From NCBI GenBank assembly GCA_949290565.1, contig CASESH010000002.1, positions 1 through 64,000 of the forward strand: a DNA stretch of 64,000 nucleotides, written 5' to 3'. This stretch comes from an uncultured Christensenella sp. GTDB lineage: Bacteria > Bacillota > Clostridia > Christensenellales > UBA1242. The notes beneath the pieces are model-generated. The model searched no databases and was not told the DNA's origin. It saw nothing but the letters and a program-made list of their open reading frames with translations. Position numbers and translations under genes: made by a program. Shown here piece after piece: positions 4,447 to 54,270 of the stretch. Position 1 is the stretch's first letter. Every line of letters starts with the position of its first letter.

Positions 4447-4529
4447 GGCGTACTATTAAAATTTGCTTTTTAAGCAAATTTTAGAAAATATGAAATATTT
4501 TCGAGCAACTTGTTGCTCAATAGTACGCC
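4447..4529 (+). repeat. Cloverleaf intergenic element, copy A
   Basis: The outer stem GGCGTACTATT (4447-4457) pairs perfectly with AATAGTACGCC (4519-4529). Inside are three hairpins in a row: AAAATTTGCTT/AAGCAAATTTT, GAAAATAT/ATATTTTC and GAGCAAC/GTTGCTC, with loops of 2-3 nt. The whole forms a four-way junction. It begins 8 bp after the tetR stop codon. No T-tract follows, so it is not an ordinary terminator. Confidence 0.85.
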
Positions 4530-4563
4530 GATTAATACAAAAAATATTTTGGGGAAATAGTTA

Positions 4564-6942
4564 ATGGAAAGATATGAAGTAAATAAAAATGTAAATTTAG
4601 AATTAGGGTTATCATCTTCACAAGTTAGTGAGAGGGTAAAAAACAAATTAGAAAACAAAACATACACAAAAACGTCAAAAACATATTTACAAATTTTTGT
4701 TTCGAACATTTTTACCTGGTTTAATATAATATGTTTTTTAATAGCCGGGGTATTAATTGCTGTTGGCAGTTTTGAAAATATAACTTTCTTACTTATTTTC
4801 ACTGCAAATTTGCTAATAGGATTAATTCAAGAGATTAGGGCAAAAAGAATGGTTGACAATATATCTGTTATATATAGCAATCAAGTTGAAGTTTTAAGAG
4901 ATGGACAAAGGCAAAAAATAAAACTAGAAAGTGTTGTTGTTGATGATATCTTTTATATAAAAAATGGAGACCAGGTATGTTGCGACTGCGTCATTATTGA
5001 TGGAAATGTTGAAGTAAATGAGAGTTTGTTGACAGGTGAAAGTAAGGCAATTAAGAAAACTAATGGAGACACTCTTTTAGGAGGTAGTTTTTTAGTAAGT
5101 GGCTCATGTAAAGTTATGGCGGTAAAAGTTGGCTTAGAAACTTATAGTTCAAAACTCATAAGAAAAGCAAGAGAATTAAAATCTAATCAAAGCGACATAT
5201 TAAAAACGCTAAATTTTATAATTAAAAGTATTGGAATAATAATTGTTCCGCTTGGTATTCTTACTTTTTTTGATTTAAAAGCAAATCACGATATTGTCTA
5301 TGCTATTGAAAAAACTTCTGGTTCTGTTATAGGAATGATGCCTGTTGGAATGTTTTTACTTACTAGTGTTTCTCTTGTTGTTGGAGTTATAAATCTTGCC
5401 AAACACAAGACACTTGTTCAAAATTTATACAGTATAGAAATGTTAGCAAGAGCAAATGTATTGTGTCTAGATAAAACAGGAACGCTTACTGATGGAACAA
5501 TGTCTATAAAAAGTGTTTTACCATTAAAGTCAAAGACTGATGAGATTTATAAAATTATGCAAAGTTATGTTAGAGCAAACAAGACAGAGAATTCAACTTC
5601 AAAAGCATTGGCAAGTTATTTTTGGGCAGAAGAAAAAGATATTGAAAAACCCCTTAATTTAGTTGAGTTTAGTAGTGAAAGAAAATTTTCTGCTGTTGAA
5701 TTTAAAAATCTTGGAACATTTATGCTTGGCGCTCCTGAATTTGTAACAAATAAGTTAGATGATGAGATAAGGGCGACTATTAAAGATTTTACAAAAGAAG
5801 GGTATAGAGTTTTACTTCTTTGCAAAAGTAGAGCAAAAAATATAAGTGAAAAAATCTCAAAAAATAATACTCCTATGGCTTTAATCACTATTGAAGACAA
5901 TATAAGGCCAGATGCAAAGTCAACTATTGAGTGGTTCAATAATAATGATGTTGAGATTAAAATTATTTCTGGCGACAACGTTGACACTGTAAGTAATATT
6001 AGTAGAAAAGTAGGAATTAAAAACTACGATAAATGTATAAGTCTAGAAAAATTAAGTGATGAAGAAGTGGAGAAAGTTGCTAATGAATATACAGTTTTTG
6101 GTAGAGTAACGCCTGAACAAAAGGCCATAATCGTTAAGGCTCTTAGAAAAAATGGAAATAAAGTCGCAATGACCGGAGACGGAGTTAATGACATTTTGGC
6201 ACTTAAAGAATCTGACTGTTCTATTGCAATGGCAAGTGGAAGCGAAGCAACTAGGAGTTCTAGTAACTTAATTATGCTAGAAAATAACTTTTCTGCAATG
6301 CCTTGTATTGTGGCAGAGGGAAGGCGTGTAATAAACAATATTTCAAAAGCGTCCTCTTTGTTTTTGACTAAAACATTCTTCTCAATTTTCTTGACTATTT
6401 TTGTTATTATTTCAACTAAATATGAATATCCTCTACAACCAAATCAAATCTTATTATGGGAAACCTTGTTTATTGGAATACCAGCCTTCTTCTTAGCACT
6501 TCAACCAAATAAAGATAGAATAAAAGGTTCTTTCTTAGCAAGTCTATCTTCTAAGGCTTTACCTGGTGCAATCGTTTTGTTTTTGAGCACAATTGCCTGC
6601 TATATTTACTGTAATATAATTAATATGGAAGAATTAATACCTACTTTGATTTCTTATTCAGTTACTTTTGGGGCTTTCTTTATTTTACTTAATCTTTGCC
6701 AACCTTTTGATAAGTACAGAACAATTATGTTATTTAGTTTGTTAGGTGTTTGTATTTTAGGTTTTGTAATTATTTCTAATGATTTCTTTAACTATTCAAG
6801 TTTAACGCTTGCTAACTATGGTTTCTTAATTGGCAACTTGGTATTTATTTATCTATCTTACTTGTTATTAAAGTTTGTTTTTGAAAAAATATTTATAACA
6901 ATAAAGAACAATAAAAAACAAAAGAGCAAAGAAAATAATTAA
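4564..6942 (+). CDS. P-type cation ATPase, CtpE-like
   Basis: A 792-residue P-type ATPase with the full set of landmarks: actuator-domain TGES near residue 157, phosphorylation motif DKTGTLT near 303, hinge GDGVND near 538, two N-terminal and several C-terminal membrane helices. The M4 segment reads MMPVGMFLLTS where related actinobacterial and Firmicutes pumps (CtpE, a calcium transporter) have IPEGLVLLTS. The glutamate of the PEG motif is therefore replaced, which may change ion coordination. The family is recognisable but the transported ion is inferred. GGGGAA precedes the ATG. The upstream tetR gene and a cloverleaf element separate it from other genes. Confidence 0.88.
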   Translation: MERYEVNKNVNLELGLSSSQVSERVKNKLENKTYTKTSKTYLQIFVSNIFTWFNIICFLIAGVLIAVGSFENITFLLIFTANLLIGLIQEIRAKRMVDNISVIYSNQVEVLRDGQRQKIKLESVVVDDIFYIKNGDQVCCDCVIIDGNVEVNESLLTGESKAIKKTNGDTLLGGSFLVSGSCKVMAVKVGLETYSSKLIRKARELKSNQSDILKTLNFIIKSIGIIIVPLGILTFFDLKANHDIVYAIEKTSGSVIGMMPVGMFLLTSVSLVVGVINLAKHKTLVQNLYSIEMLARANVLCLDKTGTLTDGTMSIKSVLPLKSKTDEIYKIMQSYVRANKTENSTSKALASYFWAEEKDIEKPLNLVEFSSERKFSAVEFKNLGTFMLGAPEFVTNKLDDEIRATIKDFTKEGYRVLLLCKSRAKNISEKISKNNTPMALITIEDNIRPDAKSTIEWFNNNDVEIKIISGDNVDTVSNISRKVGIKNYDKCISLEKLSDEEVEKVANEYTVFGRVTPEQKAIIVKALRKNGNKVAMTGDGVNDILALKESDCSIAMASGSEATRSSSNLIMLENNFSAMPCIVAEGRRVINNISKASSLFLTKTFFSIFLTIFVIISTKYEYPLQPNQILLWETLFIGIPAFFLALQPNKDRIKGSFLASLSSKALPGAIVLFLSTIACYIYCNIINMEELIPTLISYSVTFGAFFILLNLCQPFDKYRTIMLFSLLGVCILGFVIISNDFFNYSSLTLANYGFLIGNLVFIYLSYLLLKFVFEKIFITIKNNKKQKSKENN

Positions 6943-6970
6943 CCTCTTTAAATGAAAAAATTTATATTGA

Positions 6971-7006
6971 CCTCAGCAATGAAAATTTTTATTGTTGAGG
7001 TTTTTT
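6971..7006 (+). terminator. Intrinsic terminator after the P-type ATPase
   Basis: CCTCAGCAAT pairs with ATTGTTGAGG (one G-T pair) across a 10-nt loop and is followed by TTTTTT. Confidence 0.85.
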
Positions 7007-7111
7007 ATAAAGTTTTAATAAATAAAATTTATTTATAATTTTTTTCATTTTATATTTTAGAAAACTAAAAATTGTTTAGTATTTAGTGTAAAAAATTTAT
7101 TTAAAAATTAC

Positions 7112-7140
7112 TTGAAAAAATAAAAAAAACGTTGTATAAT
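7112..7140 (+). promoter_or_regulatory. Promoter of tRNA-Val
   Basis: TTGAAA at 7112-7117 and TATAAT at 7135-7140 with a 17-bp spacer, about 22 bp upstream of the mature tRNA 5' end. Confidence 0.6.
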
Positions 7141-7162
7141 ATCTTATATTAATATTTTAATT

Positions 7163-7238
7163 GGGCAATTAACTCAGTTGGTAGAGTGTCACTTTGACGT
7201 AGTGAAAGTCAGGAGTTCGAGTCTCTTATTGCCCACCA
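7163..7238 (+). tRNA. tRNA-Val (anticodon GAC)
   Basis: A 76-nt cloverleaf. The acceptor GGGCAAT pairs with ATTGCCC, and the anticodon stem TCACT/AGTGA encloses loop TTGACGT with anticodon GAC. The T-loop is TTCGAGT, and CCA is genomically encoded. Confidence 0.93.
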
Positions 7239-7244
7239 AAAATA

Positions 7245-7266
7245 GCACCTTTTAGGTGTTTTTTTT
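7245..7266 (+). terminator. Terminator of tRNA-Val
   Basis: CACCT and AGGTG form a short stem around a TTTT loop, followed by eight T residues directly behind the tRNA. Confidence 0.7.
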
Positions 7267-7673
7267 AATAATTAATTTTTAATTTTTTAAACATAGTGAT
7301 TTTAATAATTAATTGTATTAGAGTTTTTTAATTTATTTATTTTTAACATATAAAAAAAGACTAATTAGTTTTTAATTTAGTTAATATTTTGTTAGGTATA
7401 TTAGTTATAATATAAAAACTAAAAAATTAATTTTTTTAAATTGAAAATTTAATTTAGTTGACATTAAGTCTTTTTTAATAATTTCAAAATATTCTTTAAA
7501 AAATTTATCTTTTATTTTTTTATTTTTTAAAAACTTTTATGTTCTATTATTTTTTAAACTTGCTTTTTAGTTTAATGTTTATGTAATAACTAACTTTTTA
7601 AAAAGATAACATAAATTTATTTAACAAGTTTGACTAAATTTCTTAATTATGACAAAATAGTTAAGGTGATATT
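7267..7673. other. AT-rich gap before greA
   Basis: About 400 bp of A/T-rich sequence with many short T and A runs. I see no coding frame or RNA structure I could defend. The end of the gap must hold the greA promoter. Confidence 0.4.
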
Positions 7674-8174
7674 ATGTATAACGAATTAACTGAAAAAGAT
7701 ATAAAAAAAATGCAAGAAGAAATTGATTATAGAATTACAGTCGTTAGGCCAAAGATAAATCAAGAGATTCAAAACGCAAGAGAATATGGTGATTTAAGTG
7801 AAAACGCAGAGTATCACGCAGCGAGAAAAGAAAAAGGTAAAAATGAAGGTAGAATTGACTATCTTAAACAGATGATTAGAACGGCTAAAATAGTTGAGTT
7901 AAATGAAAATAAAGATGAAGTTGGCATCTTTGATAAAGTAAAGGTTTTGTTTGAAGAAGATAATCAAGTTGAACAAATTCAAATTTCTACTACTATGAGG
8001 ACAGATACTACAAAAGGGATTATTAGTAAAGAGTCTCCATTTGGAAAAGCAATCTTAGGCAAAAAAGTAGGAGATAGAATTAAGGTTGTAGTAAACAGTG
8101 ATTATAGTTATTTTGTAAAAATTATTTCAATAGAAAAAAGCAAAGATGACATTGATTTGCCCCTAACTAGATAG
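7674..8174 (+). CDS. greA: Transcription elongation factor GreA
   Basis: A 166-residue GreA/GreB protein that rescues backtracked RNA polymerase by stimulating transcript cleavage in the secondary channel. The N-terminal half is the antiparallel coiled coil. Its tip carries the acidic GDLSENAEY signature near residues 37-45, with the catalytic Asp and Glu present. The C-terminal half is the FKBP-like domain that contacts polymerase, ending with a SPFGKAILGKKVGD segment. AAGGTGAT lies before the ATG. Length is normal. The next gene has its own promoter, so greA is probably transcribed alone. Confidence 0.95.
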   Translation: MYNELTEKDIKKMQEEIDYRITVVRPKINQEIQNAREYGDLSENAEYHAARKEKGKNEGRIDYLKQMIRTAKIVELNENKDEVGIFDKVKVLFEEDNQVEQIQISTTMRTDTTKGIISKESPFGKAILGKKVGDRIKVVVNSDYSYFVKIISIEKSKDDIDLPLTR

Positions 8175-8182
8175 TAAATCAT

Positions 8183-8211
8183 TTGACTTTATTCATTAAA
8201 TAGTAGATAAT
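8183..8211 (+). promoter_or_regulatory. Promoter of rubrerythrin gene
   Basis: TTGACT at 8183-8188 and GATAAT at 8206-8211 with a 17-bp spacer. It lies upstream of AAAAGGAG and the ATG at 8237, giving a leader of roughly 20 nt. Confidence 0.6.
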
Positions 8212-8236
8212 AAATTTGTTAAAAGGAGAATTTTTT

Positions 8237-8776
8237 ATGGAAAATAAATATAAAGGAACTAAGACTGAGGAAAATTTAAGGGCTGCTTTTGCTGGGGAAA
8301 GTCAAGCAAGAAATAAATATACATATTTTGCTTCTGTTGCAAAAAAAGAGGGCTTTGAACAAATTGCTAGTATTTTTGAGCAAACTGCAAATAACGAAAA
8401 AGAACACGCTAAACTTTGGTTTAAGGAACTTGGAGAATTAAATCAAACGGCTAAAAACTTGGAAGAAGCAGCAAGTGGCGAGAATTACGAATGGACCGAT
8501 ATGTATGATGGCTTTGCAAAAACTGCCGAGGAGGAGGGTTTCCCTGAACTTGCTAAAAAGTTCAGAGGAGTTGCTGAAATCGAGAAAAGACACGAAGAAA
8601 GATATAGACAACTTCTAAAAAATGTTGAAACTAAACAAGTTTTTGAAAGAAGTGAAATAAAAGTTTGGGAGTGTAGAAATTGTGGGCATATTGTTGTTGG
8701 CAAGAAAGCCCCTGAGGTTTGCCCTGTTTGTGCTCATCCACAAAGTTATTTCGAACTTCATTGCGATAATTTTTAA
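8237..8776 (+). CDS. Rubrerythrin
   Basis: A non-haem di-iron peroxidase that removes hydrogen peroxide in anaerobes, fed by rubredoxin or NADH-dependent reductases. The ferritin-like domain has paired carboxylate motifs: EESQAR-type [10 protein letters not shown] near residue 22, then [10 protein letters not shown] near 55, and [10 protein letters not shown] near 120. The C-terminal rubredoxin-like domain binds one iron through CRNC and CPVC. I chose the ATG at 8237 because AAAAGGAG lies 9 bp before it; an in-frame TTG at 8216 would overlap that site. Length is 179 residues, typical. A second, different rubrerythrin lies at 34346-34942. Confidence 0.95.
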
Positions 8777-8785
8777 TATTAATAT

Positions 8786-8818
8786 AAAAAAGGTTAGTAT
8801 CAAATACTAACCTTTTTT
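8786..8818 (+). terminator. Intrinsic terminator after rubrerythrin
   Basis: AAAAAAGGTTAGTA pairs perfectly with TACTAACCTTTTTT around a 5-nt loop. A and T tracts on both sides allow it to work in either direction. Confidence 0.9.
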
Positions 8819-9105
8819 AGTACTCTATATTGATTTTTATAGGAATAGAATTTGTAATTTCTATATTAATTTTATTTGAAAGTAGTTTTTTATATTGCGA
8901 TTGTATTAAATAGTTTCCAAAAGGCACGTTAATTTTTACTATTCCATTTTTTGTTTTTAAAAAAAACATATTATGAGTTTTTAGATTTTTTAAAATTATG
9001 ATTGCGTCAAGTTGTTTAAATTTTTCTATTAAACTTATTTTAGTACATTTTATTTGGCGACAAATTTTATTACAAAAATTAATGCAACAATAATTACAAT
9101 ACTTT

Positions 9106-9645: not shown

Positions 9646-9692
9646 ATTAAGGATGAATTAGATAAAAATTAAATTTTATTTTGTTTTTCGAT

Positions 9693-9721
9693 TTGACATA
9701 TTTTCTTTAAAAATATAAAAT
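9693..9721 (+). promoter_or_regulatory. Promoter of the EEP-family gene
   Basis: TTGACA (9693-9698), a 17-bp spacer and TAAAAT (9716-9721), with the ATG 20 bp further on. Confidence 0.65.
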
Positions 9722-9740
9722 CTTTTATAAAGAAAGAAAT

Positions 9741-10850: not shown

Positions 10851-10871
10851 AAGTTTGTAGTTTTTAATGAG

Positions 10872-10951
10872 GCACTTTGTGCAAAAGTTTCACTTTTGCG
10901 TGAAATTTTAATTTCACGGTAAAAATTGAAAATTTTTACAGCACAAAGTGC
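10872..10951 (+). repeat. Cloverleaf intergenic element, copy B
   Basis: The outer stem GCACTTTGTGC (10872-10882) pairs with GCACAAAGTGC (10941-10951). Inner hairpins are AAAAGT/ACTTTT, GTGAAAT/ATTTCAC and GTAAAAAT/ATTTTTAC. Seven T residues follow, so this copy could also terminate transcription. It shares sequence with copy C at 13826, with paired changes in the stems. Confidence 0.85.
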
Positions 10952-11578: not shown

Positions 11579-11586
11579 TAGAAAAA

Positions 11587-13825: not shown

Positions 13826-13915
13826 GGGCTATGTGCGAAAAGTTATCTTTTCTATGAAGTTTAATTTTTAAACTTCATTGTAAAAATTTTAAAAAATTTT
13901 TACAGCACATAGCCC
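13826..13915 (+). repeat. Cloverleaf intergenic element, copy C
   Basis: The outer stem GGGCTATGTGC (13826-13836) pairs with GCACATAGCCC (13905-13915). Inner hairpins are GAAAAG/CTTTTC, ATGAAGTTT/AAACTTCAT and GTAAAAATTT/AAATTTTTAC. No T-tract follows. Compared with copy B, several stem positions differ on both sides so that pairing is kept. Confidence 0.87.
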
Positions 13916-16460: not shown

Positions 16461-16543
16461 TAGGCAGGTGTTGATAAAATTTTGTAAAAATTTTATCAAA
16501 ATTATTTTATAATTTTGGCAAGATTCTTGCAAACACCTGCCTA
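16461..16543 (+). repeat. Cloverleaf intergenic element, copy D
   Basis: The outer stem TAGGCAGGTGTT (16461-16472) pairs with AACACCTGCCTA (16532-16543). Inner hairpins are GATAAAATTTT/AAAATTTTATC, AATTAT/ATAATT and GCAAG/CTTGC. It lies 40 bp after the valS stop and has no T-tract behind it. Confidence 0.85.
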
Positions 16544-16784: not shown

Positions 16785-18740
16785 ATGGATAAATTAGAAT
16801 ACATTCTAGAAAAAATTTCTCAGTTATTTAGTGAAATGACAGATGTAAGATATTCTTTGAAGAGTTTTTCAAATCCAACTGAAATAATTACACAAATTGA
16901 CAACATAGAAAATACACTGACTACCAATTTAAGTGAGGTACAACAGTTAAAGAATAGTTTACAACAACTTAATCAAACAGTTAGCAGTATAGATACCGAA
17001 GGCATAATAAATGATATAAATAAAAATGCTTCGGATATAGTGAATTTAACAAATAATTCAACTACTTTTCAAAATTCAATAACAAATCAAGTTAATAGTT
17101 TAGAAACAAGTTTTAACAATAATTTAACAAACTTACAAAATGGATTAATTGAAGATATTAATGAAGTAGAAACAAATTTGACCAATACAATAAATTCCAC
17201 TGAGACCTTGCTAACAGAACAAATTAATCAGGTAGAAGATAATACACTGTCAGCAATAACTGAGATTGAAAATGGGGTAGCTGATTCAATAGCGACAATA
17301 ACACAGCAAATAGATAATAAGGTTTTAAGTTCACAAAATACTTTAAATGCAAAGATTGAAAGTGTAGAAGATAGTGTAACGTCACAAATAACAACTTTAA
17401 CACAAAACTTAACAAACTTAGATGAAGAATTAAGTCAAAGCATCAACAATACAACTACAAGTCTTACTCAGCAGATAGAGAATGTAAACAATAGTTGTAC
17501 AGCATCAATAACAACTCTCTCACAAGACTTAGAAGATAATGTTTCTGCTTTGCAGACAAGCATATCACAAAATACAACAAATTTAAGTACACTAGAACAG
17601 TCAACTACGCAATTTAAAAACAGTGCAAATCAAGCGATAAATACTTTAAACACTAAGGTAGAAAATTTAGATTCTCAAAATCTATCTGATAGAATTACAT
17701 CAAACGACTTAGATATTACAAATTTACTTTTTAGTACCAATCAACTTAATTCTACATTCAACAGTTTTAAACAGGAAGTACAAAATCAAATAAATAAAAT
17801 AAATTCAAACAAGAATATTTTAATTAATCCAAACTTCAAAGTTAACCAAAATGGGAAAACTCTTTATAGAAGAATGGCTAACGATAATGAAATGTTTTAT
17901 ACTGTTGATATGTTTGCTTCGGCAGCGGGAACTCTTGAAGATAATGAATTTGATTTAACACATTTGTCAACGGGAGGAATAAAAATTAAAGGATATGGTG
18001 AATGTGACTTTTTACAAATTATAGAAAATGGTAAGAATTTATATTTAAATAAACCATTAAGCCTTTCAATAAGTGTTGACGGAACAATTTATACAAAAGA
18101 GAATTTTAGTGTAACAACCAATGGTATTCAATCTTTAACTTTTCCAAAGGGTTCAGTTCACGTAATTAACAGTGGAGACATTTTTAAGTGTGTGTTAAAA
18201 GCAAATGCTAATACGGAGTTTGTAGTAAATTGGTGGAAGTTAGAAGAAGGCGAAAAAGTTACTCCATTTGTTGAGCCCAAAGAGGAGGAAGAATTTCTTA
18301 AATGTTCAAGATATTATACAGTTTTAAGAACTGTGCCAAACGATATACAACTAAATGATTATCTCACGACATTTTGCCAAGTTGTAGAATTTTACAAACA
18401 AGATGGAATTGCATATCCTTGTTTTTTTAAAACAAGGTTTTCGTTTGATTTACCAACCGAAATGAGAACTTTTCCAAAACTAAAATACTTTTCAAACTTT
18501 AAAATATTTAACACTAGGAGTGGTGAATACGAGTATGCCTATAGTTTTATGGAATTTGTTCCAGATTCAAAATATAATAACGATGGAGTTAGAGTTATAT
18601 CTTATCAAAAGAATAGAATTTTTATTGAAGGTTATTTCTATGTTTTAGATGAAGCAGGAATAGGAGATATAGGAACATATACGCAATTATTAAGCAGAGA
18701 AAATGTTTATCTTCATTTTGATGCAAACTTATATGAATAA
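16785..18740 (+). CDS. Phage tail-fibre-like coiled-coil protein, orphan
   Basis: A 651-residue protein. Residues about 1-340 are a long Asn/Thr/Ser/Gln-rich repetitive coiled coil with heptad-like units containing LTxQI and NTTxLT variations. Residues about 345-490 begin with NILINPNFKVNQNG and contain EKVTPFVEPKEEEEF followed by CSRYY. This pattern is common in phage tail-fibre and receptor-binding modules, where NLLINGDF, PY/PF-E and CQRYY elements recur. The C-terminal 150 residues are beta-rich and aromatic. There is no signal peptide. AGGAGGT lies ahead of the ATG, and no other phage gene is nearby. It could be a captured tail fibre, part of a contractile injection particle, or a spore appendage protein. 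Confidence 0.6.
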   Translation: MDKLEYILEKISQLFSEMTDVRYSLKSFSNPTEIITQIDNIENTLTTNLSEVQQLKNSLQQLNQTVSSIDTEGIINDINKNASDIVNLTNNSTTFQNSITNQVNSLETSFNNNLTNLQNGLIEDINEVETNLTNTINSTETLLTEQINQVEDNTLSAITEIENGVADSIATITQQIDNKVLSSQNTLNAKIESVEDSVTSQITTLTQNLTNLDEELSQSINNTTTSLTQQIENVNNSCTASITTLSQDLEDNVSALQTSISQNTTNLSTLEQSTTQFKNSANQAINTLNTKVENLDSQNLSDRITSNDLDITNLLFSTNQLNSTFNSFKQEVQNQINKINSNKNILINPNFKVNQNGKTLYRRMANDNEMFYTVDMFASAAGTLEDNEFDLTHLSTGGIKIKGYGECDFLQIIENGKNLYLNKPLSLSISVDGTIYTKENFSVTTNGIQSLTFPKGSVHVINSGDIFKCVLKANANTEFVVNWWKLEEGEKVTPFVEPKEEEEFLKCSRYYTVLRTVPNDIQLNDYLTTFCQVVEFYKQDGIAYPCFFKTRFSFDLPTEMRTFPKLKYFSNFKIFNTRSGEYEYAYSFMEFVPDSKYNNDGVRVISYQKNRIFIEGYFYVLDEAGIGDIGTYTQLLSRENVYLHFDANLYE

Positions 18741-21190: not shown

Positions 21191-21287
21191 AAACACGTGT
21201 GTTAGAATTTTGCAAAAACAAAATTCTAACAAGTAAAATTTATAAATAAATTTTACTTTCAAAAATAATAATTTTTGACACGTGTTT
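21191..21287 (+). repeat. Cloverleaf intergenic element, copy E
   Basis: The outer stem AAACACGTGT (21191-21200) pairs with ACACGTGTTT (21278-21287). Inner hairpins are GTTAGAATTTT/AAAATTCTAAC, AGTAAAATTTA/TAAATTTTACT and TCAAAAAT/ATTTTTGA. It is the longest copy, and T residues continue after it. It lies between convergent genes, 33 bp after the ATPase stop. Confidence 0.85.
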
Positions 21288-36809: not shown

Positions 36810-36886
36810 GCGAACAAATAAATTTAACTTGTTAAATTTAAAATACTAGCGTATTTTTGCTAAGTGAAACTTAGCAATTTGTTCGC
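36810..36886 (+). repeat. Cloverleaf intergenic element, copy F
   Basis: The outer stem GCGAACAAAT (36810-36819) pairs with ATTTGTTCGC (36877-36886). Inner hairpins are AAATTTAAC/GTTAAATTT, AAAATAC/GTATTTT and TGCTAAGT/ACTTAGCA. No T-tract follows. A naive gene call starting at 36864 would run into this element. Confidence 0.87.
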
Positions 36887-46433: not shown

Positions 46434-47930
46434 TTATGTAATGCTTAAATTTTCACTTTTTGTCTTTTTTGTAAATTTATTTTCTAATGTGATTAGTCTA
46501 TCATAGTTTTGTTTTATATTTTCCAAACAAAGATTACTACTTTGTTTAAAATCTAAATATTGCTTTTTTTCGCCATTTGAAATAAAAAATAAAGAATTAT
46601 TTTTGTCAAATCCGACAACTAAAATTTCTTTATTTTTTTTATTATCAAGCACTGTTATTTGCCATAAATCATTTTTAATTTTAGTTGTTGATATTAAACA
46701 TTCATTAGAGAGTCTTTGTTGCATTTGTTGAACATAATTTGATAAACTAAGTTCCAAATTGATTGGCCTATTATCTTTATAACTAAACATAATTTGACCA
46801 TTTTGTTTTTGTTTAAATGTGAAATTATTACTAAAAGATTGAGATAAAAAAGCATTTGATTTATAAAGTAAAATTCCTGAAATAACATTTTTTATTAATT
46901 TAGTAAATTCTATGGAGTCTTCGCTATCATTTTCAAAATGATTGTTAGAATATGAAGAAATCATTTGGTTTACTAAATTAGAATAATCATAATAATTTGT
47001 ATCTAATTTATTTCTTCTTTCGTTTTGTGAAAACTGTAAAAACGCAGAAGATATTTTTATTATTTGCTCCAAAGAAAAATATTCAGGATTTTGACAAACT
47101 TTTTGACATGTAATATTACATATAAAATCTATTATTTTTTTATAATTAAGATTTTGTAAGTAATCAATTCTATAATTTAAATCAAACTCTTTTTGAAAAT
47201 TACTACAAAGTTTATAAAGATTTTTTAAGTTATCTTCTCCAAAAAAATTACAATGATTTGTTAATTCTCCTTGTAAAAACTCAACATTATTTATATTTCC
47301 GCCATTGATTTCATTTAAAAAATTAATTATTGTTGTTTGAGGTTTATATACATTAAAATCCTCATTATTGTCTTTGACTTTTTGTGCAATAAGTTCGGTG
47401 TAACCTTCATCAAAAAAGGAACTGTCTATTAAATAGTAAGTCTTTGCATCTTCAATTTCACCTGTAACTAAATTTATTTTTTTACATTCCTTTTTTCTTT
47501 CTTGTCCCTGCTGTTTTTTTATTTCTAATTTTTGTCCATTTTGTAATATTTGTAAATAATCCATGCTTCTTTTTAAACAATGCAACATTTCGTGAGTAAT
47601 TACTTTTTCTAAAAGTTTGCTATCTTTTAGTAAGAAACTTTTTATTAAAATAAAATTAATATCATTAACATTTGTGTAACAAGCGTTATAGTGTTCATTC
47701 ATTTTCTTTAATGTATTGTCATTTATTAGCAATACAAATTTATTATCTAATAAGTTTTTAATAACCTTATAATAATTTATTTGTTGGTAAACCTCCATTT
47801 TACAAAAAAGGTCATCTAAGTTATTAATTACATTTTTCAAAGCGTTTTGTAATATTTCTTTTTGTTCGTCATCGCAAATGAAGTGTACTAAATTTAATTT
47901 TGAGTTTAAAATTTGTAGAGGTGATTCCAT
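46434..47930 (-). CDS. Gluzincin-like putative metallopeptidase
   Basis: A 498-residue cytoplasmic protein without signal peptide. It has a zinc-peptidase motif, HEMLH near residue 113, and about 60 residues later DEGYTEL. Together these match the HExxH plus (N/D)EGxxE arrangement of gluzincins, where the second Glu is the third zinc ligand. The long Asn/Lys/Gln-rich rest has no recognised domain. I start at the ATG at 47930, because the GGAGA site is too close to the ATG at 47936. It is convergent with the ABC transporter gene. Substrate unknown; a role in toxin biology or protein turnover is only a guess. Confidence 0.6.
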   Translation of the reverse strand: MESPLQILNSKLNLVHFICDDEQKEILQNALKNVINNLDDLFCKMEVYQQINYYKVIKNLLDNKFVLLINDNTLKKMNEHYNACYTNVNDINFILIKSFLLKDSKLLEKVITHEMLHCLKRSMDYLQILQNGQKLEIKKQQGQERKKECKKINLVTGEIEDAKTYYLIDSSFFDEGYTELIAQKVKDNNEDFNVYKPQTTIINFLNEINGGNINNVEFLQGELTNHCNFFGEDNLKNLYKLCSNFQKEFDLNYRIDYLQNLNYKKIIDFICNITCQKVCQNPEYFSLEQIIKISSAFLQFSQNERRNKLDTNYYDYSNLVNQMISSYSNNHFENDSEDSIEFTKLIKNVISGILLYKSNAFLSQSFSNNFTFKQKQNGQIMFSYKDNRPINLELSLSNYVQQMQQRLSNECLISTTKIKNDLWQITVLDNKKNKEILVVGFDKNNSLFFISNGEKKQYLDFKQSSNLCLENIKQNYDRLITLENKFTKKTKSENLSIT

Positions 47931-48062
47931 AATCATTCTCCTAAATTAAGTTCTATTAAACATAGTTTGATTATAGTTGCAAAAATTAATAGAAAGTTTT
48001 TTGTTTAATATAATATAAAATAATATCTTGTTTAAGTCAATCCCTTAAAAATTTATTTTTAG

Positions 48063-48091
48063 TTGACTTTTAATTTGTATGCAAATAAAAT
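48063..48091 (+). promoter_or_regulatory. Promoter of the ThyX-like gene
   Basis: TTGACT (48063-48068), a 17-bp spacer and TAAAAT (48086-48091), about 18 bp before the ATG. Confidence 0.65.
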
Positions 48092-48109
48092 ATTTTTGAG
48101 GGAAATGAT

Positions 48110-49285: not shown

Positions 49286-49377
49286 TTTTTTATAGAAAAT
49301 GTTTAAAGCACAAAATTTGATTGTGCTTTTTTCTTGAAAAAATATTTTAATTTTGTTATCTTTATTATGAGGTAGTT

Positions 49378-49980
49378 ATGAAGAAAATTACACAAATTGT
49401 TGCAGAAAATTTAGTTAGTTTGAGAAAAATTAATAATATGACACAAGGAGAATTGGCAAGTAAACTACAATATTCTGACAATACTATTTCAAGATGGGAA
49501 ATTGGAGAGGCTTCTCCATCAATAGAAGTATTGGAGAAGATTGCTCAAATTTATAATGTACCAATAGATTTTTTATTTAAGGAACATATTAAAAAAGACA
49601 TTGAAAAAGATGAAAGACTTCAAAAAATTAATAAGTTGAGTTCTATGTTGCTTATGGTTTCTGTTGTTTGGTTTGTTGCTACTATCGTTTACACATATAT
49701 TCAAACTTTTTTCAATAAAAACTATTGGACTATCTTTTTGTGGGCAGTACCTATATCTTGTTTAGTATTTTTACTGTTTAATGAATTTTGGGGAAAGTAC
49801 ATGTATAAGTTTATTATTTTGTCAGTTTTTACTTGGAGTTTACTTTTGTGTTTATTCTTTCAATTTTTTGAATATCGTTTATGGCTAATTTTTTTAGCAG
49901 GAATTCCAACTCAGTTTGGCATTATTGTTTGGTCTTTTGTAAAACCTAAGGAATATAAAAATAAAGATTCTTTTAAATAA
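49378..49980 (+). CDS. XRE-family regulator with membrane helices
   Basis: A 200-residue paralogue of the protein at 22718. An N-terminal helix-turn-helix (LRKINNMTQGELASKLQYSD, then NTISRWEIGEASPS) is followed by a charged linker and four hydrophobic helices. It would be a membrane-bound DNA-binding protein. Unlike its paralogue it has a ribosome binding site, GAGGTAG. No target or signal can be deduced. It is monocistronic. Confidence 0.83.
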   Translation: MKKITQIVAENLVSLRKINNMTQGELASKLQYSDNTISRWEIGEASPSIEVLEKIAQIYNVPIDFLFKEHIKKDIEKDERLQKINKLSSMLLMVSVVWFVATIVYTYIQTFFNKNYWTIFLWAVPISCLVFLLFNEFWGKYMYKFIILSVFTWSLLLCLFFQFFEYRLWLIFLAGIPTQFGIIVWSFVKPKEYKNKDSFK

Positions 49981-50292
49981 CTTACTTAAAAATTTTTTAA
50001 ATTTATTAATTATTTTTTATCTAATGTAAAAAAGTGTTTTTTAAAAAAATAATAGTAAAATTAAATAGTTTTCAGGACTTGTATAGTTTTTAGTTATATA
50101 AAAGTTTTTTAGATAGTTAAGTATTTATTTTTTTAGTGATTATATGAAATAAATTTTACTTTTTCAATTTTGTAATTTAATTATCTATTTTTTTAATAAT
50201 AAGTTAGTATAATATTCTATTCTTCTTATTAGTTTAATAATTTTTATATTAAAAATATTAGTAATAAAAAAACATTTTTTAACTAAAAAGAG
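49981..50292. other. AT-rich gap before the riboswitch
   Basis: About 310 bp of A/T-rich sequence with no coding frame, terminator or RNA structure that I can support. Confidence 0.4.
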
Positions 50293-50320
50293 TTGACAAA
50301 GAAAATCAAAATAGTAAAAT
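50293..50320 (+). promoter_or_regulatory. Promoter of the SAM riboswitch transcript
   Basis: TTGACA (50293-50298), a 16-bp spacer and TAAAAT (50315-50320), directly ahead of the riboswitch. Confidence 0.65.
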
Positions 50321-50323
50321 TAA

Positions 50324-50450
50324 AGCACCATAGAGAGTATGCGAGGGACAAGCCCGTTGACCATACACCAACCTACAAATTTTGCAAGGTGGTAATACTT
50401 GTTTGATGGGATTATAGTTCATTAAAGCCCATCTATGATGGGCTTTTTTC
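50324..50450 (+). promoter_or_regulatory. SAM-I (S-box) riboswitch with transcription terminator
   Basis: The core follows the S-box consensus in order: AGAGAG, GAGGGACAAGCCC, TTGA, CAACC, then AAGGTGGTAATACTTG where the consensus has GGTGCTAATTCC. The P2 stem GTATG/CATAC and the P3 pairing ACCT/AGGT support it. The expression platform is visible. GATGGG (50417-50422) can pair with CCCATC (antiterminator), or CCCATC can pair with the downstream GATGGG in the terminator AAGCCCATC/GATGGGCTT followed by T residues. The basal P1 stem is short (CCAT/ATGG). High SAM would stop transcription of the following small gene. Confidence 0.72.
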
Positions 50451-50486
50451 TTACTTCTTATGGTAAAACATAAAAGGAGAATAAAT

Positions 50487-50738
50487 ATGAAAATTAAAAA
50501 AATAATTGAACAAGAAAAAGAGGCTATCATTTGTTTAAATACAAACAATAGACAAGCATTTTTAAACTCGGCTATTAAAAATAATTTAAAGTGGCTAAAT
50601 GGAGAGAAAGTAAAAAAAGATGATAATTGTGCTTTTCATATCTATTTTGATGGTAGAGATAACATTTCAAATTTATCTACAATGTGTTTAAATTATTCAA
50701 TTTATTTTAAAAATCTATTGCGTTTAAATTATAGATAG
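50487..50738 (+). CDS. Small protein under SAM riboswitch control
   Basis: An 83-residue protein with AAAAGGAGA 8 bp before its ATG. It is Lys/Asn/Ile-rich, with a charged N-terminal helix (KKIIEQEKEAIICL) and a mixed C-terminal part holding CAFHIYFDGRDN. No signal peptide or membrane helix, and no known family. SAM riboswitches normally control methionine or SAM synthesis and transport genes, so a link to sulfur or methyl metabolism is suggested by position only. It may also be what is left of a longer operon. The stop codon is TAG, and a terminator follows. Confidence 0.6.
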   Translation: MKIKKIIEQEKEAIICLNTNNRQAFLNSAIKNNLKWLNGEKVKKDDNCAFHIYFDGRDNISNLSTMCLNYSIYFKNLLRLNYR

Positions 50739-50770
50739 GAAGAAACTTATTAAATAAGTTTCTTCTATTT
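50739..50770 (+). terminator. Terminator after the small SAM-riboswitch gene
   Basis: GAAGAAACTTA pairs with TAAGTTTCTTC around a short loop, followed by a T-rich stretch. Confidence 0.75.
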
Positions 50771-51014
50771 TATCTAAATATTTACTTAAAAAAAGAATTA
50801 TATTATATCAATATATATTGAAAATTCTTTTTATCAAAATAATAATATTAAAGAAAAAATTATTAAAAATAGAATAAAAAATATAAAAAAAGAATTTAAT
50901 TGTTTAAAACATTTATACTTGAAAAATATAATTTATAAGAATATTTTTGTTAAAGAAAAATAATATATAAGTGTATAATTGTAAAAAAAAATTAATACTT
51001 ACTAAAAAATGAGT

Positions 51015-51506
51015 ACAGTACAAGTTATGCTCGTTCGTCAAACTTTGCCAGATTGATTTATAAGTATATGTTTGATAGATTTATAATCATTAGATGTTGC
51101 TGTATAATTTATTAGTATATTAGGAAATATATTATTATCAAAAAGTTGCATTGAAATAGCATAAACGCAAGCATCTGTTTGCAAACCATAACATCAATCT
51201 CTTTGTTTTTTAATAATATGTATTTTAATTTTTTTATATATTTATTTTCTAAACCATAACCAAAATTTTAAAAGATGAAACTATTATTGAGAAATTGTTT
51301 CACAAAATTTTTTCGTCATCATTTGTCAAATTATTCCATTTTAATTTGTTAATATAAAAACTATTTTTTTTATTTATAAATTTAGTAAAAATATAGTAAT
51401 CATAATTATTAGTTTTGATTAATTGATTTATTTTGTCTGCTAAATCGAAATATTTCTTATTAATAAATCATTTTTACATATCAATAATTAATAAAAATTT
51501 ACTCAT
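51015..51506 (-). pseudogene. Isochorismatase-like cysteine hydrolase, decayed
   Basis: Reading the minus strand from an ATG at 51506 gives MSKFLLIIDM, then stop codons where relatives have Q and N/D of DMQNDF. The same frame then runs LADKINQLIKTNNYDYYIF and further to a TGA near residue 78. After a frameshift the sequence GLQTDACVYAISMQLFDNN is readable, matching the CGLxTDxCVxAT catalytic-cysteine region of the family, followed by IFPNILINYTATSND. Both catalytic Asp and Cys segments are thus recognisable, but at least three nonsense changes and one indel break the gene. Relatives include nicotinamidase and isochorismatase; the specific activity is unknown. Confidence 0.75.
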
Positions 51507-51523
51507 TACCCCCAAAAATAATA

Positions 51524-51556
51524 AACTGATAAAAACAGTAATTGTTTTTATCAGTT
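51524..51556 (-). terminator. Terminator of tRNA-Ser (GGA)
   Basis: AACTGATAAAAAC (51524-51536) pairs with GTTTTTATCAGTT (51544-51556). On the minus strand it follows the tRNA and leads into a T-rich stretch. Confidence 0.75.
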
Positions 51557-51561
51557 ATACT

Positions 51562-51649
51562 TGGCAGAGAGGACAGGATTCGAACCTGCGGTTGGTTGCC
51601 CAACACGCGCTTTCCAAGCGCGCACTTTAGACCACTCGGACACCTCTCT
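51562..51649 (-). tRNA. tRNA-Ser (anticodon GGA)
   Basis: An 88-nt class II tRNA on the minus strand. The acceptor AGAGAGG pairs with CCTCTCT, the anticodon stem CGCGC/GCGCG encloses loop TTGGAAA (anticodon GGA), and a long variable arm is present. CCA is encoded. Confidence 0.93.
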
Positions 51650-51812
51650 AAGTTTTTTTATTTTACTATATAGAATAAATTTTTGCAACACTTATTTTTA
51701 AATTTTTTACAAGAATAAAATTATAATTCACTGATTTTATTTAGAAACAGTTTTCTAATTTTTTAGTTACAAATTCTTTATAAAAAAATTAAATAAAAAA
51801 ATTATTAAAATT

Positions 51813-51838
51813 AAATTTACTAGTTGGTAAATTTTTTT
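51813..51838 (-). terminator. Terminator of the histidine phosphatase gene
   Basis: AAATTTAC pairs with GTAAATTT around a 6-nt loop. Read on the minus strand it lies just after the gene. Confidence 0.5.
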
Positions 51839-51854
51839 ATTTAAAATGAAATAT

Positions 51855-52364
51855 TTATATATAAAACTTTACAACTGAACCAAAATTTGTATTTACGTAA
51901 TTAATCTTTTGAGTTTTAGGAATTTTATTGATATATGTATTCAAGGCATAAAAAGTAGAGTTGTGTCCTACAATAATGACAGTGTTTAATTCTTTGCTTT
52001 TTTCAAAAATTTTTTCAAAACCTGAAAAACATCTATCAATAAAATTTCTACACGTTGTGAAGTTTGTGTTTTTATATGCGTAATTAAAATAATTTTCTTT
52101 AAAATCTTCTGCGTATAGTTTTTCTTGATCTAATGTAAGTTGTTCTCTTTCATCAAATTCTTTCCAAATTAAAAGTGGAGCCTTAAATTTCTTATTTAAA
52201 ATATTTGCCGTTTGTAGTGTGCTAGTTTGCGGGGAACAAAATATGCAATCGACTTTTTCTTGTTTAATATAACTAAGTGAATTTTTGATTTGTAGATAGC
52301 CAAGCATATTAAGTTTATTAGTTTTTAAGTTTGTTTTTCCGTGTCTAATAAAAATAATTTTCAT
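51855..52364 (-). CDS. Histidine phosphatase family protein
   Basis: A 169-residue protein of the phosphoglycerate-mutase-like superfamily. The phosphohistidine motif RHGKT is at residues 7-11, and the second catalytic His is in VIIVGHNSTFY near 134. It is shorter than classical mutases and matches the small SixA/CobC-like phosphatases in size. Substrate cannot be stated. AGGAGGAGG lies upstream of the ATG. It probably shares a transcript with the lysoplasmalogenase-like gene, 24 bp upstream. Confidence 0.85.
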   Translation of the reverse strand: MKIIFIRHGKTNLKTNKLNMLGYLQIKNSLSYIKQEKVDCIFCSPQTSTLQTANILNKKFKAPLLIWKEFDEREQLTLDQEKLYAEDFKENYFNYAYKNTNFTTCRNFIDRCFSGFEKIFEKSKELNTVIIVGHNSTFYALNTYINKIPKTQKINYVNTNFGSVVKFYI

Positions 52365-52388
52365 AACAATGATTTTCCTCCTCCTTTA

Positions 52389-53117
52389 TTAGATAAAGAA
52401 GATAAAAGAAGAAATTATAATTTGCGCTAGATAATAAAAGGCGTGATTTATTATAATTAAAGTTTTATCTTTTTCTTTATCTCCAAAGTATTGCAAAGAG
52501 AGAATTAAGTCAGAAATTAAAAACATAACAAATCCAATTGCTAAAATATAGGTTGGAATCGTTGTTATTATAAATGATGAGTAAATCGCAAGAATGGTTG
52601 TAAATATTAAAATAAAAGAATAAATATTAACTAAAATAGTAAAATTTTCATAGTTTAGTTTAAGAAGTTTTTTAGAAACAAAATAAATAATTATGGCTAG
52701 TATAATTGACGAAATAAAAATAATAAAAACAGGAATCAAATGATATTTTAGTAAACTTTCATAAGGAGAGGCAATCAAGAATATACCTGCAATATAGAAT
52801 AAATGACCTATTAAAAAAGAAGTTATTCCAGCATAGAGATATTGATTTTTATGAAAGTGGTACATAACCTTTAAATCAAGAATTATATCTCCAATAAGTC
52901 CACACAATAAGCCAAATATAATCATTGTAATTGATAGAGATGTAAATTGATTTGAATCAGACTTATTTAAATAGAGTACAAGAGCAAGGGCTACAAAACA
53001 AAAAGAGGCAACTATTTTAGATATTAAACCATAAGTTTCACCTTTTTTTACTCTCAAACATATAAAAACACAGGATGTAATTAAACACAAAATTATACCA
53101 CTTATTAAATAAATCAT
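52389..53117 (-). CDS. YhhN/TMEM86-like lysoplasmalogenase family protein
   Basis: A 242-residue protein with about eight hydrophobic helices. The arrangement fits the YhhN (TMEM86) family, with GLLCGLIGDIILDLK near residues 73-87 and GFVMFLISDLILSL near 195, each with the conserved Asp in a membrane helix (GD and SD). Family members hydrolyse the vinyl-ether bond of lysoplasmalogens, lipids typical of anaerobic Clostridia. Activity here is inferred. AAAGGGGT lies upstream of the ATG. It forms an operon with the histidine phosphatase. Confidence 0.75.
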   Translation of the reverse strand: MIYLISGIILCLITSCVFICLRVKKGETYGLISKIVASFCFVALALVLYLNKSDSNQFTSLSITMIIFGLLCGLIGDIILDLKVMYHFHKNQYLYAGITSFLIGHLFYIAGIFLIASPYESLLKYHLIPVFIIFISSIILAIIIYFVSKKLLKLNYENFTILVNIYSFILIFTTILAIYSSFIITTIPTYILAIGFVMFLISDLILSLQYFGDKEKDKTLIIINHAFYYLAQIIISSFIFFI

Positions 53118-53204
53118 CTTTTACCCCTTTTTTATAAATATACTAATTATAAAGTTTTTAGTAAAAAAATCAAAACATTATTAACAATTTTAAAAGGAAA
53201 AGTT

Positions 53205-54182
53205 ATGAAAAAAATTAAAGTTGCTATTTTAGGTTATGGAAATTTAGGAAAGAGTCTAGAAGAATTAATTTTGAAAAACGAACTTTTTGAATTAATTGGA
53301 ATTTTTTCAAAAAGAAGAAATTTAAAAAGTAAATTTAATACTTCAATTTTTAATCTTAACAATTTACAAATCTATTCAAATAAAATTGACATTGTTTTTG
53401 TTTGTCAAGGTAGTTATAATGGTGTAGAAAATTTAAGTTATAAACTAATTGAAAACTTTAATTTTGTTGATAGTTTTGATACTCATAAAAAACTAAAAAA
53501 TTATATAAAAAGGTTAGATAAAAAGTCAAAAGTTTATGGAAAAGTTTGTCTCTGTGCCTTTGGTTGGGACCCGGGTTTATTAAGTTTATTTAGATTGTTA
53601 TTTTATGCTATTTCTGGTGAAAAAATCTTTTCAAACTGTTTTTGGGGAGAGGGAGTTAGTCAAGGACATAGTAACGCAATTAGACAAATTAAAGGCGTTA
53701 AAAATGCGATACAATATACCGTTCCAATTACCAAACAAATCGAAAAGTGTAGAAAAGAATTTAATTTTTTTCCATCCGAATTTGAAAAACATTTAAGAAT
53801 TTGTTATGTTTCTACTTTTGATTTTGCAAATAAAATACAAATTGAAAATGAAATAAAAAATATGAAAAATTATTTTCAAGGATATGAAACTGTCGTTCAT
53901 TTTGTAAATGATGAAGAGGTTGTCAAAAGACAAAAATCACTATCTCATAGAGGGCTAGTGATTTCAAATTATAAAATTTTAGATAAATACAATACTAAAT
54001 TGGAATTTAGTTTAGATATACAAAGCAATCCCTATTTTACGGCACAAGTTATGATTATGGGAGCAATGGCTGTTAGTTATTTAGTTAAAGAAAAAAAATT
54101 TGGTGCATATTCCATTTTTGATTTGCCAACAAAATACTTTGTTAATTTTACAAAAAAAGATTTGAATGGTTTTTTATTGTAA
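53205..54182 (+). CDS. ddh: meso-Diaminopimelate D-dehydrogenase
   Basis: Makes meso-diaminopimelate from tetrahydrodipicolinate in one NADPH-dependent step, for lysine and peptidoglycan. The 325-residue protein has the Rossmann motif GYGNLGKSLE at residues 11-20, WDPGLLSLFR near 125 and EGVSQGHSNAIRQIKGVKN near 150-168. The family signature lies in this last segment. The normal length is about 325. It links to sporulation, since tetrahydrodipicolinate-pathway intermediates also feed dipicolinate. AAAAGGAAAA precedes the ATG. Cloverleaf copy G begins 10 bp after the stop. Confidence 0.93.
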   Translation: MKKIKVAILGYGNLGKSLEELILKNELFELIGIFSKRRNLKSKFNTSIFNLNNLQIYSNKIDIVFVCQGSYNGVENLSYKLIENFNFVDSFDTHKKLKNYIKRLDKKSKVYGKVCLCAFGWDPGLLSLFRLLFYAISGEKIFSNCFWGEGVSQGHSNAIRQIKGVKNAIQYTVPITKQIEKCRKEFNFFPSEFEKHLRICYVSTFDFANKIQIENEIKNMKNYFQGYETVVHFVNDEEVVKRQKSLSHRGLVISNYKILDKYNTKLEFSLDIQSNPYFTAQVMIMGAMAVSYLVKEKKFGAYSIFDLPTKYFVNFTKKDLNGFLL

Positions 54183-54192
54183 TTTTAGTAGA

Positions 54193-54270
54193 GGGAATTT
54201 GTCGCAAAATTTTAGAAAAATTTTGAAAAATCTTTGATTTTTAGCAAGTTACACTTGCCGACAAATTCCC
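54193..54270 (+). repeat. Cloverleaf intergenic element, copy G
   Basis: The outer stem GGGAATTTGTCG (54193-54204) pairs with CGACAAATTCCC (54259-54270). Inner hairpins are CAAAATTTT/AAAATTTTG, AAAAATC/GATTTTT and GCAAGT/ACTTGC. No T-tract follows. It separates ddh from a convergent P-type ATPase gene. Confidence 0.87.

Follow-up and report, generated by a model that had tools for sequence, protein, structure and literature searches.

Intergenic elements of Christensenella that keep a three-hairpin cloverleaf while their sequence changes

Introduction

BOX, RUP and SPRITE of Streptococcus pneumoniae are small, non-coding intergenic interspersed repeats that are strongly base-paired (PMC3049150). 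As far as this source describes them, the terminal inverted repeats of BOX and RUP pair in duplexes, both are modular and multi-copy, and SPRITE is terminator-like (PMC3049150). The family described here is likewise small, intergenic, non-coding, strongly paired and multi-copy. However, compared with BOX by hairpin number alone, its number of hairpins is fixed at three and a variable number of inner modules was not seen, and it differs from all three families in being a closed cloverleaf of three different hairpins, whose paired stem positions drift together and whose first hairpin carries its loop in either orientation. REP and BIME sequences are high-copy extragenic palindromes, uneven among related species and thought to be non-autonomous mobile DNA; REPs are palindromes of 20-40 bp, often arranged as dimers, and are linked to RAYT (Y1) transposases, with CGTC-tagged ones described that lack a dedicated transposase (PMC3733652). 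The cloverleaf family is also high-copy, extragenic and uneven across species and, as with the CGTC repeats, no dedicated transposase was found for it, but its members are four-way junctions of 75-112 bp in which no GTAG tag was seen, and the CGTC-like motif of one subfamily lies away from the foot of the stem. Prokaryotic MITEs are described as short, AT-rich, non-coding, intergenic and dispersed (PMC10969869). Our elements share the short length, AT-richness, non-coding nature, intergenic position and dispersal, and their flank motifs are imperfect and face inward; in contrast to MITEs, the conserved core is the central cloverleaf and not terminal repeats only, and no insertion sequence was found whose ends would mark it as the parent. 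Efa-1 and Pae-1 are stem-loop families that are repeated and intergenic, as our elements are, and a common fold is predicted for both of their strands (PMC2267715). These are paired stem-loops, unlike the cloverleaf, although the same source also mentions families with complex structures, which might include one (PMC2267715). No named cloverleaf repeat family was met in the literature searched, most subscription literature lying outside its scope. Mitochondrial double-hairpin elements are mobile and defined mostly by their structure, and this form of identity is shared with the elements reported here; they are organellar, have two hairpins and lack a closing stem, in contrast to the cloverleaf.

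Results and discussion

The window analysed here is a stretch of 64,000 nucleotides from an uncultured Christensenella species, for which a preliminary description had reported seven intergenic elements, each built from an outer stem and three hairpins. Folds and stem measurements reproduce both positions and layout exactly in all seven cases. Element A (4447..4529, minus strand) has an outer stem of 11 bp and hairpins of 11, 8 and 6 bp; it lies 8 nt past a plus-strand stop codon. Element B (10872..10951, plus strand) has the sequence that we call type B, with the outer stem GCACTTTGTGC; it lies 21 nt past a stop and is followed by a T-run. Element C (13826..13915, plus strand) is located upstream of valS, 22 nt past a plus-strand stop, and element D (16461..16543, minus strand) in the gap between valS and tRNA-Met, 40 nt past such a stop. 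Element E (21191..21287, minus strand) lies in a convergent gene pair, 33 nt past the plus-strand stop and with a T-run after it, and element F (36810..36886, minus strand) 14 nt past the stop of a nucleoside-hydrolase-like gene. Element G (54193..54270, minus strand) is found between convergent DAP-dehydrogenase and calcium-ATPase-like genes, 10 nt past the plus-strand stop. From A to G the perfect outer stems measure 11, 11, 11, 12, 10, 10 and 12 bp, and each encloses three simple hairpins, with 0-2 unpaired bases at the junctions.

A covariance model (R1) was trained on seven copies, namely B and C, one other copy from the same genome and four from L001, a sequence that we take as part of the congener genome G006 because the element sequences are identical. 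In a search of the window with R1 the seven elements rank as the top seven loci, and hence they are confirmed as real copies of one family with polarity. The model places B and C, which were in its training set, on the plus strand and the other five on the minus strand; A, for instance, scores 36.5 bits on the minus and 27.5 bits on the plus strand. Polarity, originally suggested for A, D, F and G, is therefore real and extends to all seven. The covariance search that had been proposed as a check also turned up more copies in the own genome and in relatives. MAFFT was without success on elements other than type B (A-type), copies of which R1 picked up. Neither Rfam, at gathering thresholds, nor ARAGORN gave a match at the seven sites, and a known RNA family or tRNA relic was rejected for this reason; the resemblance to a tRNA raised earlier does not go beyond the outline.

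Structures of this kind do not arise readily by chance. Looser scanners found some three-hairpin structures even in shuffled sequence, and the scanning rule was therefore tightened to a chain in which the outer stem pairs perfectly over 7 bp or more and each hairpin over 5 bp or more. Since perfect pairing is required, the word perfect in scanner counts partly reflects selection. Over 318,446 b from the own genome, this strict scanner called 10 three-hairpin and 4 two-hairpin structures, compared to none and 3, respectively, in ten dinucleotide shuffles of the same sequence. In 389 kb of G006 chain scanning gave 40 structures with three hairpins, 18 with two (mostly A/T-rich) and none with more, while five shuffles gave no three-hairpin call. 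A chance origin is rejected on these grounds, and the comparison with shuffled sequence suggested in the preliminary description was passed. One of the 10 three-hairpin calls in the own genome, at 46581-46643 of the window, was set aside as spurious, its outer stem being A/T-only and its paired fraction low.

Copy number differs strongly between genomes. We found 14 elements in 633,920 b sampled from the own genome, where a minimum paired fraction and at least two G/C in the stem were also required; all 14 have three hairpins though two or more were permitted, and the window contig, rich in cloverleaves, carries 7 of them. The congener G006 has 81 elements in 763,021 b, counted with a minimum paired fraction and with three or more hairpins permitted (the 40 in 389 kb all had three), and 80 of these lie clear of predicted ORFs (80 aa or longer); genes were defined here by an ORF rule rather than a gene finder. 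Other relatives contributed 3 strict elements in 1,956,257 b. With R1 at E 1e-4 and stricter filters, at least 4 of 197 genomes of the bacterial family score, the own genome included, and in most relatives searched none was found among the best 110-150 or 22 candidates scored per genome, so that these whole-genome counts are lower bounds that miss weak copies. The repeat is thus amplified in a single species, whereas searches of the other congeners found few copies or none.

What is maintained in these elements is the pairing. In an alignment of copies (A1) 15 of 41 pairs changed on both sides, one-sided variation was absent and 267 of 269 cells were paired. Four of five covariation measures were reached by none of 500 shuffles, whereas the fifth, further pair types, was reached by 152 of them. 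For a broader count, 164 R1 matches in G006 were reduced to 150 aligned and 89 distinct loci by dropping the 14 lowest and opposite-strand duplicates. Their 3358 stem cells comprise 3282 Watson-Crick pairs, 24 G-T (0.7%), 9 A-C and 43 others, counted in a model-fitted alignment that leans to structure and in which several of the 43 are likely end or loop misfits. In 52 tRNAs of the same genomes, by comparison, G-U pairs make up 58 of 624 stem cells, and 25 of 364 in the acceptor stems alone, the T-stem being located by position from the 3' end. We show, at the level of the aligned copies, that stems change as Watson-Crick pairs. The loops of the first hairpin come in reverse-complementary forms (TTTCA 37 and TGAAA 15, TTCCA 5 and TGGAA 1, TAAAA 4 and TTTTA 3), and no reversed or merely complemented 5-mers were seen among them. 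Second-hairpin loops have no excess of reverse complements and those of the third a modest one, so that clear evidence of loop flipping is confined to the first hairpin. The scarcity of G-T pairs, the covarying stems and the first-hairpin loops in both orientations together argue for upkeep at the DNA level. The original claim that structure is kept over sequence is borne out by the covariation in A1, the covariance search and the shuffles, while a role in RNA only, as a 3'-end stabiliser or processing site, is disfavoured because G-U pairs are scarce.

One subfamily provides evidence for dissemination. A stretch of 177 bp is present in both C2 and C14 of genome G007, with 99.4% identity and unrelated flanks, and G006 contains tandem module units of 164-168 bp, where the 5'-end motif of the module has 20 matches at up to 2 mismatches, several of them 164-168 bp apart. 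Hence, this subfamily is shown to be a sharp-ended module of about 167 bp, present at unrelated loci and in tandem; sharp ends are demonstrated for this subfamily only and not for the window copies. TATA-like direct repeats occur at both module ends and fit an origin from the target as well as from the element, and GACGAC (GTCGTC on the other strand) starts 12 nt before the cloverleaf. Flank motifs of type B have variable spacing and no clear ends. The inward motif TTATWTYTACTNCAACTAAA was present in 27/72 cases on the training side and 13/72 on the other side, with controls of 1/72 and 3/72. Allowing one mismatch, GACCTATTA within 150 nt of an element points inward 29 times and outward 5 times; 6 of the 29 belong to one tandem array, and 218 of all 252 matches lie elsewhere. 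A constant tag at the foot of the stem was not seen in the flanks inspected. The sharp ends and the amplification in G006 fit the earlier suggestion that the elements are traces of a mobile element.

The search for a mobiliser was less productive. No autonomous parent was found among the 16 module units listed from the sampled part of G006 and the two copies of G007, all of which are short, and 763 kb of G006 contained no convincing long inward-facing motif pair; one long inward pair of TTTACGACCTATTA-like motifs was judged to be chance, one member lying inside a predicted gene. Among eight genomes, the Y1 transposase domain PF01797 had no match in G006 (assembly 91% complete), G001, G002 and G007, and 5, 1, 3 and 2 matches in the own genome (G000), G003, G010 and G011, respectively, so that it does not follow copy number. 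Mobilisation by a Y1/RAYT enzyme is not supported, since G006 is richest in copies and shows no match. Genes for serine and tyrosine recombinases are spread through the genus, do not track copy number and are uninformative. An origin from a virus, phage or plasmid was rejected: an exact 22-mer had no matches in viral contigs, a 181-b module region matched neither plasmids nor phages, and a type-B element had no match among plasmids.

Some places are shared between species. For 6 of 10 testable own-genome elements a cloverleaf is found at the orthologous place in G006. The counterpart of B (G006 C21:54843) is a cloverleaf with a different sequence, that of C (L001 9828-9919) has stems with paired changes, and D (G006 C21:46420), E (G006 C21:43823) and F (G006 C23:6722) also have cloverleaves as counterparts. 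In the four pairs with a strand score for each member (C, D, E, F) polarity is equal. Long retention accounts for the shared places better than continued jumping does, and they may be a sign of host function. At two places compared, no empty site was readable because intergenic flanks are unalignable between the species, and insertion is therefore inferred from the copies rather than seen.

On balance, we lean towards a new MITE/REP-like family that is recognised as folded DNA and was later retained near gene ends. As part of this reading it seems somewhat probable that the conserved feature is the DNA cloverleaf, with its closing stem and three polar hairpins, rather than the sequence. Copies would move through the action of a putative enzyme on the single strand in its folded form. 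Replication is the probable occasion, since the elements are oriented with GC skew. Of 68 type-B copies (72 minus 4 that lie inside a predicted ORF or lack a neighbour), 51 agree in orientation with the local skew, as do 16 of 20 where the neighbouring genes give no direction; orientation is partly confounded with gene direction, with which 35 of 48 tandem cases agree, and the four tandem cases that oppose the local gene strand divide 2 to 2. Perfect pairing might be kept by DNA-level processes such as hairpin-templated correction and flipping, together with selection for the folded form. The host would tolerate or keep copies that settled just past genes, and some of these may serve as transcription terminators. 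A more far-reaching version, which we put forward tentatively and do not expect to hold in full, is mobile DNA with shape as its heritable identity: a single-stranded cloverleaf would be moved by a putative enzyme, stems would drift freely while hairpin-templated copying and flipping restore pairing, and old copies, domesticated at gene ends, would persist across species though their letters are replaced.

The strongest competitor, still an unlikely one in our view, is that the host keeps the elements as unusual terminators or 3'-end insulators, in which an RNA cloverleaf formed past the stop codon and followed by a U-run stops RNA polymerase and the symmetry of the two strands serves convergent genes. 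Gene context speaks for it in part. All seven window elements lie 8-40 nt past a plus-strand stop, as first described, and 10 of the 14 own-genome elements lie 1-40 nt past a facing stop; as a rule for the family this spacing fails, since in G006 both strands are used and, among the 75 elements that face a stop codon, only 19 lie within 40 nt of it, with a median of 94 nt. T-runs past the element in gene sense are enriched in G006 (24/49 against 185/870 background 3' flanks, p = 3e-5), but not in the own genome (3/13 against 107/495), and the window has long ones after B and E only, which agrees with the earlier statement that most copies lack a T-tract. A separate canonical terminator is rarer at element-bearing 3' ends (3/62) than at those without an element (107/709, p = 0.02), and the retention at orthologous places would also suit a host role. 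Against these points stand the rarity of G-U pairs, which RNA tolerates, the many-fold differences in copy number among congeners and the 5 of 77 G006 elements in divergent gene gaps, a weak depletion (p = 0.06). Moreover, transcription termination works without a three-hairpin cloverleaf, which would be superfluous for this purpose. A terminator role is thus only partly supported; the view that the elements are not simply terminators holds, with the qualification from the G006 T-runs that some may terminate.

Host DNA sites for a protein with affinity for four-way junctions or cruciforms, such as a nucleoid, recombination or replication-fork factor, with structure and orientation under selection, appear improbable to us. 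Scarce wobble pairs, first-hairpin loops in both orientations, the agreement with GC skew and the polarity conserved in C, D, E and F are all consistent with such sites. However, most sampled congeners yielded no copies or nearly none, which would be odd for a housekeeping site, half of the own-genome elements fall on one contig, and the sharp-ended tandem module resembles amplification. Relics perfected by mutation alone, with template switching perfecting any long quasipalindrome as described for E. coli (PMC7202029) so that pairing is uninformative on function, agree with the paired changes and both-orientation loops, but we regard them as very improbable since they leave three polar hairpins every time, dispersal, sharp ends and orthologous-site retention unexplained.

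Conclusion

Small palindromic repeats are common and their stems usually have a consensus, while in the favoured MITE/REP-like family structure is kept and sequence is not. The cloverleaves persist at orthologous places even though the intergenic DNA of the species has become largely unalignable, and the A-type copies illustrate that covariance-based detection reveals repeats invisible to plain alignment. The family offers a natural test system for whether bacterial repeat palindromes are upheld at the RNA level or at the DNA level, in the latter case through folding, template switching and enzymes that recognise folded strands.

Architecture and chance expectation

All seven elements of the window (A, 4447-4529; B, 10872-10951; C, 13826-13915; D, 16461-16543; E, 21191-21287; F, 36810-36886; G, 54193-54270) were found where the preliminary description had placed them, and each has the layout claimed there, a perfect outer stem of 10-12 bp around three hairpins and no more. 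Between 0 and 2 bases are left unpaired at the junction. The host genome comprises 951,692 bases in 44 contigs. Window GC content is 26.9%, and the valine-tRNA ligase of the window is 91% identical to its counterpart in L001, a sequence of an uncultured Christensenella sp. taken here as part of G006 (record CASFQL010000021.1), the congener with most copies. The window also holds a plus-strand SAM riboswitch aptamer (RF00162; 50325-50420), with a 92-aa ORF starting 39 nt downstream at 50460, and encodes a 651-aa protein (16785-18740) whose match to the Zorya defence protein ZorA is weak (E 8e-4; 17.8 bits, cut-off 190).

Chance is a poor explanation for this layout. A strict scan for perfect hairpins in chain, enclosed by a perfect stem, returned 10 three-hairpin and 4 two-hairpin structures from 318,446 b of the own genome, compared with 0 and 3 in ten dinucleotide shuffles of the same sequence. 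One of the ten was discounted, its outer stem being A/T-only. The same scan of 389,039 b of G006 gave 40 three-hairpin structures, none with more than three hairpins, and five shuffles gave 0 three-hairpin structures; two-hairpin structures, mostly A/T-rich, numbered 18 versus 11 in the five shuffles. Scanners with looser rules found three-hairpin structures in shuffles too.

A covariance model of the cloverleaf, R1, was trained on elements B and C, one more own copy and four L001 copies. All seven elements outscore every other locus of the window and are matched full length, B and C on the plus strand and A, D, E, F and G on the minus strand, in agreement with the polarity proposed for them. 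The unlike sequences thus have one layout in common, and the order of its hairpins matters.

Distribution and retention

Further copies, as sought by this covariance search, exist in the own genome and in relatives, most of them in G006. The strict scan of 633,920 b of the own genome gave 14 copies, half of them (7/14) on the window's contig, and R1 recovered from the whole genome at least six loci of type B (the sequence class of element B), element G and four weak places among the 150 candidates scored out of 1495. In G006 the strict scan covered 763,021 b and gave 81 copies, 72 of which are type B. Matches to R1 occur in 6 of 40 relatives, the own genome counted, with G006 highest. Of the 40, 11 belong to the genus besides the own genome: matches are numerous in G006, number two in G007 and one in G010, G001 has a single weak one, and seven have none. 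With stricter filters and E 1e-4, four of 197 family genomes match, and G001, G010 and G022 drop out. A single R1 match in G079, from another genus of the family, is a perfect three-hairpin cloverleaf (L230:1505-1580). Strict scanning of other relatives, 1,956,257 b in all, yielded just three cloverleafs, each with three hairpins, in L037, L042 and L206. Those at L037:8085-8171 and L042:3054-3138, from two other Clostridia MAGs, resemble each other (GC-richer, outer stem GGGCATATTGC) and lie about 1.15 kb upstream of a valS match in both; this second cloverleaf equals the own family in layout and is unrelated in sequence.

Of the own elements whose neighbour gene has an orthologue in the sampled part of G006, 6/10 have a cloverleaf at the equivalent place (background 53/540 gene sides; p ~0.004), and in the reverse direction 5/40 do (10/460; p ~0.03), the two comparisons being mutually dependent and the p values allowing for two sides. 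Two orthologous pairs are similar in sequence, namely element C, with paired stem changes, and own C44:29130 with G006 C10:177285; the remaining pairs differ widely. The strand of C, D, E and F, judged by R1 or by the first-hairpin motif, agrees across species. Copies thus persist as their letters are replaced.

Paired change and probable upkeep at the DNA level

The proposal that structure is kept over sequence is borne out by the stems, which change as pairs. In a seven-sequence alignment, standard pairs fill 267 of 269 cells, both sides changed in 15 of 41 pairs, and there is no pair whose variation is confined to one side. Four of five covariation measures exceeded all 500 shuffles; the fifth, on further pair types, did not. 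At the 89 G006 loci that the model selected, Watson-Crick pairs make up 3282 of 3358 cells, and the rest are 24 G-T, 9 A-C and 43 other. For comparison, 52 tRNAs from the same two genomes have 58 G-U and 2 A-C among 624 cells in their acceptor and T stems.

The first-hairpin loop, read in the element frame, is TTTCA in 37 copies, while 15 have TGAAA, the exact reverse complement, and two further loop pairs likewise occur as reverse complements, with no 5-mer only reversed or only complemented. This excess is absent from the second hairpin and modest in the third. Selection on RNA does not readily account for a hairpin that is flipped when the rest of its element is not. Extruded DNA hairpins would give such a flip naturally, as would template switching, by which quasipalindromes are known to be perfected in E. 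coli (PMC7202029).

Orientation and the terminator question

The orientation of type-B elements in G006 follows local GC skew in 51/68 (p 4e-5), and in 16/20 (p 0.01) of those whose neighbouring genes converge or diverge. In tandem gene pairs it matches gene direction in 35/48 (p 0.002), and the four tandem cases opposing the local gene strand split evenly, so that skew and gene direction are not fully separable as cues. In tandem gaps of G006, the upstream stop is the nearer end for 36/56 elements (p 0.04), and somewhat fewer elements lie between divergent genes (5/77, versus 47/320 for gaps that measure 100 b or more; p 0.06).

The elements are not simply terminators, as the preliminary description had it. 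In G006, 24/49 have a T-run after them in the gene sense, compared with 185/870 in the background, but in the own genome the figures are 3/13 and 107/495. Some copies are possibly terminators, which is not a general role.

Probable mobility

Two copies in G007 have 177 bp in common at 99.4% identity, with unrelated flanks. They belong to one subfamily, a sharp-ended module of about 167 bp in which a small hairpin is joined to the cloverleaf by a GACGAC linker. When up to 2 mismatches are allowed, the motif at the module's 5' end is matched 20 times in G006. Several of these matches form tandem series spaced 164-168 bp, and inspected units carry TATA-like repeats at both ends. At the two places compared no empty site was readable, and insertion is deduced from the copies. 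Among the genes searched in relatives, no mobilising gene tracks copy number. The G006 assembly has no Y1 transposase match. The own genome has five (C4:37-393, C9:25808-25951, C6:5300-5362, C36:14366-14428 and C41:5-88), four of them partial and all near contig ends, those of C4 and C41 at contig starts; an IS200-like element therefore probably breaks this assembly. Three 56-nt R1 matches of equal score also lie near its contig ends. Short tandem repeats adjoin cloverleafs, of the 24-bp TTTACGACCGATTA type in G006 (C21:108907-109016 and C32:17-126), where the array reaches near a contig end and reappears at the start of another contig, and of the CTACTAA type in the own genome (L086, after 15523).

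The cloverleafs are a new family within a known kind, the small dispersed palindromic repeats; the parts of the literature covered by our searches contained no description of such an architecture conserved in this way. Most likely, copies spread as non-autonomous mobile DNA by way of a folded single strand, on which a putative enzyme would act, and once moved they would be kept near the ends of genes.
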